Assembly: GCA_030523725.1 (NCBI GenBank)
Contig: JAUNHV010000002.1
Span: 1-64,000 of the forward strand
Direction of reading: 5' to 3'
DNA length: 64,000 nt
Source of the DNA: Synergistaceae bacterium
GTDB taxonomy: Bacteria > Synergistota > Synergistia > Synergistales > Synergistaceae
Within the stretch, counting starts at the first letter, position 1. Each line of letters opens with the position of its first letter. This document shows positions 12,403 through 17,733 of this stretch, in pieces. The notes beneath the pieces were generated by a model that was given only the letters and a program-made list of their open reading frames with translations, did not search any database and had not been told where the DNA came from. A program made the translations under genes and the position numbers.

Positions 12403-12444
12403 AAAAATAACCACAGGTAGTGACTTCTACCTGTGGTTATTTTT
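12403..12444. terminator. Bidirectional terminator containing the adhesin stop codon
   Basis: An 18-bp perfect stem (12403-12420 with 12427-12444, six-base loop) has T-rich ends on both strands. It lies about 95 bases after the pseudophosphatase gene. On the minus strand its right arm encodes the last five residues and stop of the autotransporter gene. Confidence 0.85.
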
Positions 12445-15400
12445 ATATTGGAGATTTTTATTTTTTATCGTTTTTACTTTCTTCTTTTGCATCTTTTTCA
12501 CTTTCTTTTGTTTCTTCGTTTCGGCTTTTTGTTTTGTTTCAATGAGTTCAGTCATTTTTGCAAGTGCCATTTCCAACTGTTGTATGCGTTTCGTGTTTTG
12601 AGAATCTGCATCCTCAAACCGATCCTTCAACTCTTGGATACGTTTTTCATATGATATCTTTTGGCTAGCGAGCTGATTATTCAAGTCTGCGTAATCCTTC
12701 TTCATATCAGCCATGGCAGCTTGTAGTTGCTCCGTCTCTTTTTTGGCAATCTTCTTGCTGCTCTTGCCGAGCGAGAAGGACATACCAGCACGCCCCATAA
12801 CATCTGCACCCTCTGTAACTGATGCCGCAAGGTTGAACATAAAGCGATCAGATGTGTAATGGAATACACCTATTGCATAGCTTGTTTCGTCTCTGTATGT
12901 GCCAACACCAGCGGAAAAGCTCGTTGGTGTGTCTGGGTTGTATGGTAGTGGGTGGAGTGCAGAGAGGGCTGCTGCATGTGAACCAACCTGACGCGTCCTT
13001 TCGTCTAGTCGTGACATATCGCTAGAAAGTTTTGAAAATCCGCTATCGACATAGGCTTTGTTCACGGCATCATTAGCATTTAGTGGCGTTGCGACATTCG
13101 TTATGCGGCGATAAAGCCCCGTTTGTGCGTTACCGACGGATACCGTGTTTGCTTCGTCAGCAAGTGAACCAGCACCAAGTGCTGTGCTTAAATTTGCAGT
13201 GGCTTTACTGTAACTTCCCAGTGCAGTCGCGTATTCCGCGCCAGGGGCTTTTTCATTTGCGTTGTTTATGTTGCTTTGTGGCTCTTGGTCACTTGCTACT
13301 GTCGCACCATAACCTAATGCTATACCTGCCGTTGACGCCTCAGATACACTGGCGTTATACGCCTGCGCAATTGAACCAGGAGCATTTGCAGAAGCGACTT
13401 TGTCAGTTTCGTTTACTTTCTTTGCACTTGCTGCTTCAGTTCCAGTTTTTCCTATGTTATTTATACGAGCGTCATAGCCTTCATATTTTGCCACCTTTTC
13501 TGCAGTTATTCCAGAGTTTACTGCTGCAAGCTGATTTTCTGATAATGTATCCTGCTTACCTGCAAGTAGTGTATTCATCTGTTTAACATTAACTGCATCC
13601 GTGTCATTCACTCCGGCTTTTAGGTTACTTATCGTCGTACCGCCGTTTCCCTCAAGGTCAATTCTTGTTTTATCCTCATTGTAATGCACAGCTTTTTGGT
13701 CTTCTCCGCCGCCTCCACCTGCTATCGTCAGTGTTGTTGTTGAACCGTTGGCTCTCGTAAGGGTAAGTGTGTTATTTGAATAGCTCGCGGCTGTATAGGC
13801 TGTGGCTATTGTCGCTTTGTTTGCTTCTACAATTTTGTTTGTCTCAAAAAGTTGGCCTGTTGTTGCTGCATAGTTGCCATTTTCTGCAAGCTCTGCTACC
13901 GCTACATTGGCTATTTCCTTATCTCCTGCGTTTAGCCCTGCCTTTGTTATGTAATCATGCCCGTCTATTGTCAAACTGTCCGGCCTTAAGGCTGCATATA
14001 TCTTTTCATCTGTCGCAGTTGTCTGGTAACCTAGCGTTATATGGTCTGTTGTCATTTCAGAGAATTTGCCGTAGTTGGAGCCTTCTTCGTCTCCTCTTTC
14101 TGTCATGGATATTCCGTCTTCATCTACCCATACATAGCCGTTACCTGTGTTAAAGTTTGCACTACCCAAGCTTATTTCATCCTGCAGTCCTATTGACATT
14201 GCCTTCACAGTTTTACCATCTGTGTCATACACGGGGGTAAATGCTATGTTGGCACCATTTGTCAGTGGTACTGTTTGCCCTTCTATGGTTATTGTTGAGG
14301 AAATTCCTTCAAGGCTTATTCCTGGAAGTGTCTTTGTAGCTCCAGTATACTCATCCTTTACTGTTAGAGTAAGGTATTTTTTGTTATTCTCACCTGTAGT
14401 TATTGTGCCACCATTTACCACTCCGTTGTGCAACTGGGCAACGTCCAATGTGCTGTTGTCTGCCTTGACTGCCTTGACTGCTCCACCCGTGCTTGTAAAA
14501 CCTGTTATGATGTCTGAAGCTACATCATTTATAGCCGTTTTGTTAGCTGCTATTGCATCTGCATTTATCTTTTCGGCTGCTTTGGCTCGCGACACTTCGT
14601 CGCTTATTGCTGCTTGGTTTGTTGCTATATCATCTGCATTTTTCTTTATTGCTGCATCCGCAAGTGCCTTGTTTGTTTCTATTGTTGTTGCGTAGCTATC
14701 ATATTGCATTACCTTGTCAGATGTTATACCAGAGTTCACGGCAGCGAGTTGTTCTTTTATCAGTTTATCTTGCTTAGTTGCAAGTGCAGTATTCATCTGC
14801 CCAACGTTAGCCGCGTCTGTGTCATTTTTGCCAGCTGCTACATTTACAATTTTTCGTTCGCTGCCAGAAGCACCAACAGAAATTGTGTTCTCTTCGCTTG
14901 CCACAGAGCCATATCCTATTGCCGCATATTTGTCCGACACGAACACACCGTTTGTCGTTATCTTTTTGCCTTCAGTCTTAATTTCTGTCTCTTTTGCGGT
15001 GACAAAGCCAGTGACTGTTACGTCGTCTTCTACTTCCAGTTTGCTTATCGTCGCTCCACCAAAAACTTCTCCGCCACCTTCACCAACATTAACCTTTGTA
15101 TTGTAGCTAGCCTGTTCAAGGCCTAGCTTGAATTTTTGTCCAATGTTAGCCGTTAAATCTTTGTCCTTATAGGCAGCACTAAGTGTTCCCTCGTTCTTGC
15201 TTCCTGCATCAGTTCCTATCTTTTGGATAGTCACACCTGTATCTACCAAATCTGACGCGTAGTCCGTTTTCTTGTCTCCATTTGCCTGCTCTGCATAGAC
15301 AAGTATCTTGTCACCTGGCTGCAGGTTGTCGATATTTACCTTTCTTTGTGTCTCACTGGCATTGGGTGAAATACTTGCATAGTCTTTATATGTATATGGA

Positions 15401-16509
15401 CTTTCTTCCGTACCACCTCCTGTTACAGCTAAAGCAGATACCATATTTGCCTTGTTATCAATGATTGCGTCTGCATTATAGCTAACCAACAGACTATTCC
15501 CCCACGTGGTTGTGTAGCTTCCACCCGTCAGGTCAAGTATGCTACTTCTTTCTGCCATATAGTCAAGCGATCCCACTTGTTCCTGCGTTACGACAACATC
15601 TGTTGGGGCTTTTATTCCAGTCGGATTTTTCTTTTCATCATAAGCATCATTTATGGTCACCTTCCAGCCATTTGCTCCAGTATAGGTATTATCGATTCCA
15701 AAAGTACCTGCTACGCTGGCGGAATCTTTGCCGTCTACGGCGGCGGATAAAAACAAAACCGATTCTGGATTCAGATTTAAAGCCGGACGGACGGTGTTTT
15801 CGAAACTTTCCATTTTGGCATCCACGACTAGGCCGGTATTGCTGACGTAGTACGCATTTTTGTAATTACCGGACGGCGAACGCAGCCACCACCAGGGATT
15901 AGGACCGGATGCTGCTGCTCGGTCTTTGGTATCTTTGAAATACCCCAAATCTTGGTCTGTTTTTACGTAATTTGCTTCTTCGTAACTCAGTAAAAATATT
16001 CTGTCTGTCGATTCTAAGTGAGGCCACGATCCGCCTCCTCCTGCCTTGTGGGTCGTGTCTAATATTGCATTATATTCTGCCTTACCAAACGCACCCTTTG
16101 CAAAACTACCGTCTGTTAAATTAGTGTGTTTAACATCAGTGCTTGAAACACCACTTTTTAGCCCAGATATATCTGCACGTATCTGTGATTCTCCCCACTT
16201 TTGGTTATATGGCTTAGTTCTTGTGTCAAATGCCCTCTTCCACAACGTGTTCTGAGACAAAAGAAGCACTCCCATATTGTTGTAGTCATCTGCTCCATTC
16301 GGATTTACTGCCAACACTCGCCATTGGATCGGGGATTGGTCACCTTTACTATTTTTGCCATAGTATATCGTGCTGGCTGCCGATTGCCCTGTCGCATAGG
16401 GCTTTATCTTGGTAATATCCATCAACCCACTTGCCACCGCCGGCACAACCGAACCAAACACAGACAATAATATCATTACCACTGTCAAAAATTTTTTACT
16501 TCTTTTCAT
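12427..16509 (-). CDS. Trimeric autotransporter adhesin, DUF6273 head and YadA-like anchor
   Basis: A 1360-residue surface protein secreted by the type Vc route. Signal peptide 1-27. Residues ~45-255 form a DUF6273-like domain (IQWRVLAV, WWWLRSPSG, TVRPALNL), an unusual head. Then come the stalk and at least three YadA/Hia-type necks (for example NDTDAANVGQMN, NDTDAVNVKQMN, NANDAVNKAYVD), Ala-rich coiled coil, and the anchor with HAAALSALHPLPYN and the four strands ending GMSFSLGK near residue 1248. About 113 residues follow the barrel: a heptad-rich coiled coil and a Lys-rich tail, which would sit in the periplasm. AGGAGGT is 9 bases before the ATG. A 12-base G tract and a hairpin lie upstream, suggesting switching of expression. 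Confidence 0.88.
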   Translation of the reverse strand: MKRSKKFLTVVMILLSVFGSVVPAVASGLMDITKIKPYATGQSAASTIYYGKNSKGDQSPIQWRVLAVNPNGADDYNNMGVLLLSQNTLWKRAFDTRTKPYNQKWGESQIRADISGLKSGVSSTDVKHTNLTDGSFAKGAFGKAEYNAILDTTHKAGGGGSWPHLESTDRIFLLSYEEANYVKTDQDLGYFKDTKDRAAASGPNPWWWLRSPSGNYKNAYYVSNTGLVVDAKMESFENTVRPALNLNPESVLFLSAAVDGKDSASVAGTFGIDNTYTGANGWKVTINDAYDEKKNPTGIKAPTDVVVTQEQVGSLDYMAERSSILDLTGGSYTTTWGNSLLVSYNADAIIDNKANMVSALAVTGGGTEESPYTYKDYASISPNASETQRKVNIDNLQPGDKILVYAEQANGDKKTDYASDLVDTGVTIQKIGTDAGSKNEGTLSAAYKDKDLTANIGQKFKLGLEQASYNTKVNVGEGGGEVFGGATISKLEVEDDVTVTGFVTAKETEIKTEGKKITTNGVFVSDKYAAIGYGSVASEENTISVGASGSERKIVNVAAGKNDTDAANVGQMNTALATKQDKLIKEQLAAVNSGITSDKVMQYDSYATTIETNKALADAAIKKNADDIATNQAAISDEVSRAKAAEKINADAIAANKTAINDVASDIITGFTSTGGAVKAVKADNSTLDVAQLHNGVVNGGTITTGENNKKYLTLTVKDEYTGATKTLPGISLEGISSTITIEGQTVPLTNGANIAFTPVYDTDGKTVKAMSIGLQDEISLGSANFNTGNGYVWVDEDGISMTERGDEEGSNYGKFSEMTTDHITLGYQTTATDEKIYAALRPDSLTIDGHDYITKAGLNAGDKEIANVAVAELAENGNYAATTGQLFETNKIVEANKATIATAYTAASYSNNTLTLTRANGSTTTLTIAGGGGGEDQKAVHYNEDKTRIDLEGNGGTTISNLKAGVNDTDAVNVKQMNTLLAGKQDTLSENQLAAVNSGITAEKVAKYEGYDARINNIGKTGTEAASAKKVNETDKVASANAPGSIAQAYNASVSEASTAGIALGYGATVASDQEPQSNINNANEKAPGAEYATALGSYSKATANLSTALGAGSLADEANTVSVGNAQTGLYRRITNVATPLNANDAVNKAYVDSGFSKLSSDMSRLDERTRQVGSHAAALSALHPLPYNPDTPTSFSAGVGTYRDETSYAIGVFHYTSDRFMFNLAASVTEGADVMGRAGMSFSLGKSSKKIAKKETEQLQAAMADMKKDYADLNNQLASQKISYEKRIQELKDRFEDADSQNTKRIQQLEMALAKMTELIETKQKAETKKQKKVKKMQKKKVKTIKNKNLQYKNNHR
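13474..13632 (-). repeat. Neck-stalk repeat copy 2 inside the adhesin gene
   Basis: A 53-residue segment (neck NDTDAVNVKQMN plus QLAAVNSGIT) aligns without gaps to the copy at 14692-14850, with about 35 identical residues. It indicates growth of the stalk by internal duplication. Confidence 0.8.
14692..14850 (-). repeat. Neck-stalk repeat copy 1 inside the adhesin gene
   Basis: Partner of the segment at 13474-13632 (neck NDTDAANVGQMN plus QLAAVNSGIT); both copies are 159 bases and in the same frame. Confidence 0.8.
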
Positions 16510-16542
16510 TTCTGTTTACCTCCTATTGGAAAATAAAAACAC

Positions 16543-16595
16543 AACGACACAAGGCATAGAAATTTTTAAACAAAATTCCTATGCCTTGTGTCGTT
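16543..16595 (-). promoter_or_regulatory. 17-bp inverted repeat in the adhesin leader
   Basis: Perfect 17-base arms at 16543-16559 and 16579-16595 surround a 19-base AT-rich loop that can extend the stem further. On the minus strand the hairpin is followed by GTGTTTTTATTTTCC and then the AGGAGG site, 34 bases before the adhesin ATG. It could be an attenuator, an RNA-stability element or the terminator of an upstream short transcript. Confidence 0.6.
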
Positions 16596-16660
16596 ATCTG
16601 GGCACAAATACAGTTTTGCTATTGATTTGATTGTTGTTTCTTGAAATGTTAGGACATAAT

Positions 16661-16672
16661 GGGGGGGGGGGG
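16661..16672. repeat. Homopolymer of 12 G (poly-C on the adhesin strand)
   Basis: Twelve consecutive G residues in an otherwise AT-rich intergenic region, 152 bases upstream of the adhesin start. Tracts of this length change size by slipped-strand mispairing and control phase-variable surface proteins in other diderms. I cannot place it with confidence within a promoter; ATTATG lies directly after it on the minus strand and TATAAA about 30 bases before it. Confidence 0.85.
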
Positions 16673-17224
16673 TAACCGTTGCTATCACTGTATTTGTTAC
16701 ACTTTTATAAGTTTCTTGCACTTCCATGTTTCTGTTTTGCTTGGTACCCATCACAATATGCTTCCCTTCCCATAAATTTACCAAACTAATACATCTCGAA
16801 AATAAATATCAAAGTATAGCAAAAAAGTGAAGTTTATGCAAGCATATTACCAATAATAATTTACTACAATTTATCGTTTCATTTTTATGCAGACTTTTTT
16901 CTGCATAGGCAAAACGCACAACCCTGTAATACCATAGCAAAAGCACGTAAAATTAACGCAAAGTCTTAAGAAATTGATGTGTGATTTTTTTCTTTGAGAG
17001 GAGCAAAAATACGCGAAAATTTTTAAGAAAATTGATAGTGTAGAAAAATTTAGAAAATCTTATAAAACTATTTACGATTGATAATTTTTCGATAATTTTT
17101 TGTCGTAAAAAATTTACATTATGTGTAAATGAACTATTGTTTTAGCTTAATTCTGCTGTGTATTTTTTAATGTATAAAAACATACAGTAAATAAAATAAT
17201 ATGCAATATATACAAATAATAGAC
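16673..17224. other. Gene-free AT-rich stretch between adhesin and mraZ
   Basis: About 550 bases separating the divergent adhesin and division cluster. It is strongly AT-rich with many A and T runs. A 72-codon minus-strand ORF (16566-16784) crosses the G tract but has no recognisable similarity. Apart from the elements listed separately I see no RNA gene or convincing coding signal. Confidence 0.6.
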
Positions 17225-17260: not shown

Positions 17261-17300
17261 GTGGGAGAAAGTGGTAGAAAATAGTAGAAAGTGGGAAATT
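17261..17300 (+). promoter_or_regulatory. MraZ operator: four tandem 10-bp repeats
   Basis: Four head-to-tail decamers occur: GTGGGAGAAA, GTGGTAGAAA, ATAGTAGAAA and GTGGGAAATT. The 10-bp period and the TGGG/AAAGTGG core match the TGGGN repeats bound by E. coli MraZ and the AAAGTG boxes of Mollicutes. They lie directly before mraZ and cover its leader and ribosome-binding region. A further GTGGGAA occurs at 17311, inside the first codons. Confidence 0.85.
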
Positions 17301-17304
17301 TATC

Positions 17305-17733
17305 ATGTTAGTGGGAACATATACTCCAAAACCGGATGCAAAATCAAGAGTGGTTTTTCCCTCCAAGTTTCGTGCAGAGCTTGGAGCGTCTGTTGTTGTG
17401 ACCATTGGCATGGAACATTCCATCGCTGTCTATTCCAGAGAAGAGTGGGAAGTTTACTTGGAAAGAGTAAAGCAACTTTCTACTTTTAAAAAGGATGCTC
17501 GCGATTTTAGACGCTTCATATTGTCAAAAACATACGAGTTAGACTTTGACGCTGCCGGTAGAATCATTATACCACAAGACCTGAAGACATATGCAGGAAT
17601 TGATTCTCAAATTACACTGATAGGTGTTGAGAACCATGTTGAGGTTTGGAACTCAGAAAAATGGGCTGAACATGAGACCGAAATTATGGCAGGCTTGGAG
17701 TCCATGGCGGAAGCCCTTGAAAATAAGAATTAA
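17305..17733 (+). CDS. mraZ: Transcriptional regulator MraZ
   Basis: A 142-residue double AbrB-like (swapped hairpin) DNA-binding protein that forms rings and controls its own dcw operon. The two half-domains each carry the DxxxR motif: DAKSRVVFPSKFR near residue 11 and DAAGRIIIPQDL near residue 83. ATG 17305 gives the canonical MLVGTYTPKPD start; the ribosome site is weak and lies inside the last operator repeat, so repressor binding and translation share sequence. rsmH begins two bases after its stop. Confidence 0.95.
   Translation: MLVGTYTPKPDAKSRVVFPSKFRAELGASVVVTIGMEHSIAVYSREEWEVYLERVKQLSTFKKDARDFRRFILSKTYELDFDAAGRIIIPQDLKTYAGIDSQITLIGVENHVEVWNSEKWAEHETEIMAGLESMAEALENKN

Follow-up and report, generated by a model that had tools for sequence, protein, structure and literature searches.

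The trimeric autotransporter adhesin in this stretch of Synergistaceae DNA is probably controlled by a phase-variable transcription attenuator, whose slippage element is a run of twelve C inside a short leader reading frame that ends in the loop of a strong intrinsic terminator. We give this reading roughly two chances in three. The window, by which we mean the whole stretch analysed (64,000 nucleotides), comes from a draft genome of 1.55 Mb in 15 contigs, in which homopolymer lengths may be off by one; the genus of the source organism is represented by this one genome. All parts of the proposed switch lie between the adhesin gene and the divergently transcribed mraZ:

17305–17733, plus strand: mraZ, divergent neighbour and first gene of a division/cell-wall cluster, outside the switch
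16813–16841, minus strand: probable sigma-70 promoter, TTGCAT (16841–16836), 17-nt spacer, TATACT (16818–16813), extended −10 TGC
16566–16751, minus strand: leader ORF of 61 codons from the frame analysis, MGTKQNRNMEVQETYKSVTNTVIATVTPPPHYVLTFQETTIKSIAKLYLCPDNDTRHRNFV and stop
16687–16697, no strand assigned: second arm of an 11-bp inverted repeat
16661–16672, minus strand: homopolymer tract of 12 C, encoding Thr-Pro-Pro-Pro in the leader frame
16649–16651, minus strand: early stop TAA of one alternative frame, in the fourth codon past the tract and roughly 50 nt short of the hairpin
16604–16614, no strand assigned: inverted-repeat arm, 11 bp, perfect, whose partner at 16687–16697 encloses the tract with it
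16594–16596, minus strand: stop TAA of the second alternative frame, exactly at the hairpin base
16527–16597, minus strand: intrinsic terminator and putative attenuator, with a 26-bp stem (16597–16572/16566–16541), a 5-nt loop and the tail GTTTTTATTTTCCA
16519–16524, minus strand: AGGAGG, ribosome binding site of the adhesin, from the sequence
12427–16509, minus strand: trimeric autotransporter adhesin of 1360 aa, with DUF6273, YadA stalk, YadA anchor and a 114-aa C-terminal extension

Tract, leader frame and terminator upstream of the adhesin

The sequence-only reading had placed twelve G at 16661–16672 ahead of a trimeric autotransporter, and both the coordinates and the identity of the gene hold exactly. 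The adhesin carries a YadA anchor (E 4.5e-13), a YadA stalk (E 1.9e-11) and an N-terminal DUF6273 domain, and it scores above cut-off for PF03895 and PF05662, which places it in type Vc. The anchor is not C-terminal, being followed by a coiled-coil, lysine-rich extension of 114 aa (12427–12771); the adhesin of a relative (L217) likewise continues beyond its anchor. On the other side, the divergent neighbours are mraZ and mraW, and the closest named MraW is that of Candidatus Caccocola faecipullorum, also of the Synergistaceae (57%); on this match an origin in the Negativicutes, at first suggested by the diderm dcw cluster, was rejected. Just 5′ of mraZ (17262–17304) stand GTGGGAGAAAGTGGTAGAAAATAGTAGAAAGTGGGAAA repeats that resemble MraZ operator boxes. 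As far as their DNA was fetched, G015, G016 and G044 do not show the adhesin beside mraZ, and a direct scan of the genome contigs with the adhesin gave no match.

The tract, twelve G on the plus strand and twelve C on the adhesin strand, is separated from the adhesin ATG at 16509 by 151 bases. No other G/C run in the window is as long, the closest being 8 C and 6 G, and A/T runs reach 9–10 at most. Under a first-order Markov model such runs are expected 0.0004 times per window and 0.01 times per genome, and the tract is thus far beyond chance. The adhesin reading frame excludes it and no frame through it joins the adhesin in the frame analysis, so that slippage does not change the coding frame of the adhesin itself.

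The tract does lie within a leader frame. This frame is open from 16808, has its ATG at 16751, preceded by a rather weak Shine-Dalgarno sequence (AAGGGAAG), reads the tract as Thr-Pro-Pro-Pro and, at 12 C, continues into the hairpin loop, where it meets the TAA at 16568–16566. A slippage-prone repeat whose unit is not a multiple of three therefore sits inside the leader ORF, and the three frames that leave it stop at +9, +64 and +92 past the tract, with the hairpin spanning +63 to +120: one well before the terminator, one at its base and one within it. When the tract and hairpin were kept and the rest was shuffled with dinucleotide composition preserved, an ORF of 50 aa or more that starts with ATG, crosses the tract and ends in the hairpin arose in 90 of 4000 shuffles (2.3%), and an ORF of the same type of at least 30 codons in 6.8%. 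By itself the geometry of this leader is suggestive, not conclusive, at about 2% by chance. A search for a homologue of the leader elsewhere in its own genome detected none.

The terminator, taken alone, is far beyond chance. Its hairpin has a dG of −38, and its score of 43.7 compares with a maximum of 15.0 among 25 dinucleotide shuffles (0 of 25 as high). As far as sequence can tell, it stands between the leader ORF and the structural gene, directly followed by the ribosome binding site and the adhesin ATG. Because the stretch between the divergent promoters (mraZ on the plus strand, adhesin on the minus strand) holds no other gene, there is none for the terminator to end; here it would make sense only if it attenuates the adhesin or closes the leader. 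The hairpin sequence has no second copy in the genome besides its own other arm, and no Rfam family exceeded its gathering score, the matches listed being chance fits to a long hairpin.

Transcription probably enters from upstream of the leader. Among the sites ranked on the adhesin strand from 16950 to 16509, TTGCAT-17-TATACT comes first with a score of 9.7, the next independent site reaching 6.0, and it predicts a transcription start near 16806; a stricter consensus scan omits it because of its weak −35. No promoter of comparable score lies between tract and adhesin. In fact, the tract is some 140 nt downstream of the best-scoring promoter, neither between nor next to the −35 and −10 elements of the adhesin promoter, and the ATTATG and TATAAA motifs once pointed out around the tract do not identify one. 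With the tract downstream of the best-scoring promoter, in a leader ORF whose stop falls in the terminator loop, the likely switch is attenuation controlled by the leader peptide.

Slippage tracts and leaders in the genome and its relatives

The source genome holds six further G/C runs of at least 9. Four belong to a repeated promoter/leader module, which stands ahead of autotransporter adhesins wherever the downstream gene shares the contig. The module sites (L017 6665, L018 6934, L019 129 and L021 1, corresponding to G000:C6, C6 end, C7 start and C15 start) show a G9–11 run beside a GC-rich hairpin; at those that retain the downstream part, the run precedes a TTGACA promoter by 37–42 nt. Contigs break off within these modules, and several giant adhesins, the longest of 4456 aa, have their start at a contig end. 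A G9 run also lies inside a giant autotransporter (L017 9723–9731, G000:C6:14722–14730); there the frame with the N-terminal DUF6273 ends shortly after the run while the beta-domain frame is open across it, so that in this assembly the tract splits the gene. A C10 run (L020 6223–6232, G000:C9:19222) lies near the 3′ end of the gene for a small, cysteine-rich, predicted-exported protein whose C-terminus reads ...DPPPSYYGY.

The paralogous adhesin loci combine a TTGACA/TATAAT-like promoter, in most copies with a G9–11 tract 37–42 nt upstream, with a leader peptide MMSNQLTFVFFN... or a close relative of it, whose stop lies inside a strong terminator; the sequence of the stem differs from copy to copy, and four such leaders end in this way. 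Leaders of the conserved form MM(SN/G)QLxFVFFN..., each ending in a strong terminator, were seen at G000:C6:11599, C9 end, C13:24659 and C14:27806; they have no slippage tract in frame and look like attenuators of the pyrBI type. Slippage tract and attenuator are separate at the paralogous loci and combined in the window.

Relatives place slippage tracts at comparable leader or 5′-coding positions. We surveyed three genomes of the family (G004, G013 and G014) for C tracts of at least 9 ahead of or at gene starts on the same strand, and 13 of the 14 tracts lay 39–54 nt after a start codon led by a Shine-Dalgarno sequence, in an open frame. The rate among control positions was 3.9%, and on the opposite strand the count was 1 of 14. 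Some tracts fall within the opening codons of surface-protein genes, as in ordinary translational phase variation, and others are in short leader ORFs before trimeric autotransporters, with YadA domains confirmed for L214 and L217. The leader of the window departs from this pattern in that 79 nt separate its ATG and tract, beyond the 39–54 nt range, and its Shine-Dalgarno sequence is modest whereas those of the relatives are strong.

Four of the leaders before trimeric autotransporters (L214, L217, L221 and L249, from two genera, three in G004 and one in G014) share the ending MQYxx[YF]xDD[GS] directly before the stop (MQYLPYCDDG, MQYGKFADDS, MQYQPFADDS and MQYLQYFDDG), with synonymous codon differences. 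The corresponding DNA pattern has no other site in 53 genomes of the family; a search of the phylum (188 genomes) returned three matches in another family (L254–L256), which are ordinary genes and were set aside. The stop of L214 and of L249 lies inside a strong terminator, and the long frame of L217 passes a strong terminator-like hairpin before which its other frames stop; terminator scoring found no convincing terminator at L221, L227 and L231.

In G015 the repeat is a different one. Five leaders there, with a GGAGGGG Shine-Dalgarno sequence, carry AGAC repeats within the leader ORF, and the copies occupy all three frames (short, middle and long). In the fetched DNA an adhesin-type ORF comes after four of the five, and the fifth meets the end of its contig; a hairpin directly ahead of the adhesin is traversed by the long frame, though these hairpins are weak and not significant singly. 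Elsewhere in the same genome (L095, G015:C46), twelve CATA repeats lie in a Shine-Dalgarno-led leader ORF upstream of an adhesin, with frames that stop at +11, +55 and +375. In G004 and G013, runs of G9–11 precede phage tail-collar-like genes (..GTLVCDGS..) by 38–62 nt (L215, L225 and L229), possibly phase-variable prophage tail fibres, and in G014 a near-identical pair of transposase-like ORFs is placed divergently at 129–202 nt from five G/C tracts (L235, L242, L243, L247 and L251).

Proposed switch, its precedents and competing explanations

We propose that RNA polymerase would start near 16806 and make a leader of about 300 nt, on which a ribosome would begin at the ATG at 16751 and translate across the C tract. 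In the long frame, as assembled with 12 C, the ribosome would reach the stop in the terminator loop and keep the hairpin open, so that transcription would go on into the adhesin. In the slipped frame that stops at 16649, the hairpin would form behind a free RNA polymerase and the transcript would end at the T-run, leaving the adhesin off. The third frame, with its stop at the hairpin base, may be on, partly on or intermediate. The assignment of the assembled 12-C state to on, of one neighbouring frame to off and of the other to on or intermediate follows the precedent of pil1. What the DNA shows directly is the tract, the frame open through it, where each of the three frames stops, and the hairpin followed by its T-run; the use of the promoter, translation of the leader, termination, length variation and switching are what we infer from them.

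The precedent comes from Streptococcus gallolyticus, whose pil1 and pil3 loci are phase-variable attenuators (Danne et al. 2014, PMC3894217). At pil1, the number of GCAGA repeats in the leader gene sets the length of the leader peptide and places its stop either within a hairpin terminator or ahead of it, by 49 bp or by 4 bp, the ribosome blocks premature termination, and long leader peptides give high expression, as shown by experiments on the leader start codon, the terminator and chloramphenicol (PMC3894217). Like pil1 and pil3, the window has a short, non-triplet repeat in a leader ORF and an intrinsic terminator before a surface-adhesion gene, and upstream of the leader, where pil1 and pil3 have their promoter, it has its best-scoring predicted site, with a weak −35; like pil1, its three frames stop far upstream of the hairpin, at its base and within it. 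The streptococcal repeat is a pentanucleotide, GCAGA, in a monoderm, serving sortase pili, with expression shown experimentally, whereas the window has a C homopolymer (Pro-Pro-Pro) ahead of a trimeric autotransporter in a diderm of the Synergistota and is known from sequence alone.

The window also resembles Escherichia coli pyrBI, where the frame of the leader peptide (pyrL) likewise runs into a terminator, whose action is prevented by a ribosome close behind. Control at pyrBI is by UTP, with no slippage tract involved, and it is the non-repeat leader peptides of the paralogous adhesins in the source genome that come closest to it. Coupling at pyrL has been described, and where polyproline precedes an intrinsic terminator in E. 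coli, read-through comes to depend on EF-P (PMC5021804). The Pro-Pro-Pro codons upstream of the terminator in the window recall the PPPPPP-pyrL construct of that study (PMC5021804), which, unlike the window, is a synthetic reporter without phase variation; a role of EF-P in the window is a possibility. It is tentative, and in our view rather doubtful, that the tract has two jobs, setting the frame and pacing the ribosome as Pro-Pro-Pro, such that stochastic switching would be overlaid by a sensing of EF-P activity or translation speed in a leader class widespread in Synergistaceae. A signal for nascent-chain arrest could further come from the conserved MQYxx[YF]xDD[GS] terminus.

The mechanism first suggested for the tract was that of Moraxella catarrhalis uspA1, where, as in the window, a homopolymeric G/C tract lies upstream of a trimeric autotransporter adhesin; we know of no leader ORF with a terminator there. 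Slippage as the source of phase variation is likely, and well supported by its context, namely the improbability of the tract, the further tracts in the genome and those in relatives, and it is the promoter mechanism that finds no support. A tract that altered the spacing within a promoter or directly preceded one, in the manner of the uspA1, fim or opc switches, would have parallels in the source genome, with its G9–11 tracts 37–42 nt upstream of TTGACA, and in G015, where a G10 run before an adhesin (L087 430–439, G015:C85) lies between TTGACA and GATAAT with 18-bp spacing, a classic case of promoter-spacer phase variation. We nevertheless hold it unlikely here, because the sole candidate spanning the tract, TTACCC-18-TAACAT, is also the best from tract to gene and scores 6.0 against 9.7 upstream of the leader, a ranking on which a promoter at the tract was rejected, and because such a switch leaves the terminator and the open leader frame without explanation. 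That the tract, which is probably transcribed, acts on an untranslated leader RNA by way of its folding, its stability or how accessible the ribosome binding site is, we consider quite unlikely: the 11-bp perfect inverted repeat around it (ACAAATACAGT/ACTGTATTTGT, 16604–16697, seen in 4 of 500 shuffles) forms a stem in the predicted fold of the leader, but the C run stays mostly unpaired in this fold, the terminator forms independently of it, and in relatives the tract sits inside Shine-Dalgarno-led frames. An invertible element between the same repeats was also considered, with nothing in its favour except the repeats themselves.

A perfect 26-bp stem directly upstream of a ribosome binding site could protect an mRNA, and the hairpin might accordingly serve in 5′ stabilisation or processing, or end transcription so as to release a short RNA, beside a tract of no regulatory role. 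We regard this as very unlikely, given the T-run directly 3′ of the stem, the different hairpins found at the same place in paralogous and related leaders, several with the leader stop inside, and a G run so improbable by chance. Finally, in a draft of 15 contigs, one of which starts inside a C run, the tract might be suspected to be an artefact of assembly or a passive repeat that keeps one length; this is most improbable, as the tract is internal to its contig and similar tracts occupy comparable places in relatives, including the single-contig genomes G013 and G014.

Attenuation as a possible route to adhesin phase variation

The design of the switch has already been described for streptococcal pili, and what is new here is the distant phylum and the different repeat unit; our literature search found no paper combining Synergistetes with adhesin phase variation. 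If our reading is true, the repeat-in-leader attenuator of S. gallolyticus is not a one-off, but also occurs in a distant diderm phylum, where it precedes trimeric autotransporters and uses another repeat unit. Transcription attenuation would then join promoter and coding slippage as a route to adhesin phase variation in this little-studied lineage, and a simple rule would follow for genome scans: a slippage tract in a short, Shine-Dalgarno-led frame that runs into a terminator.
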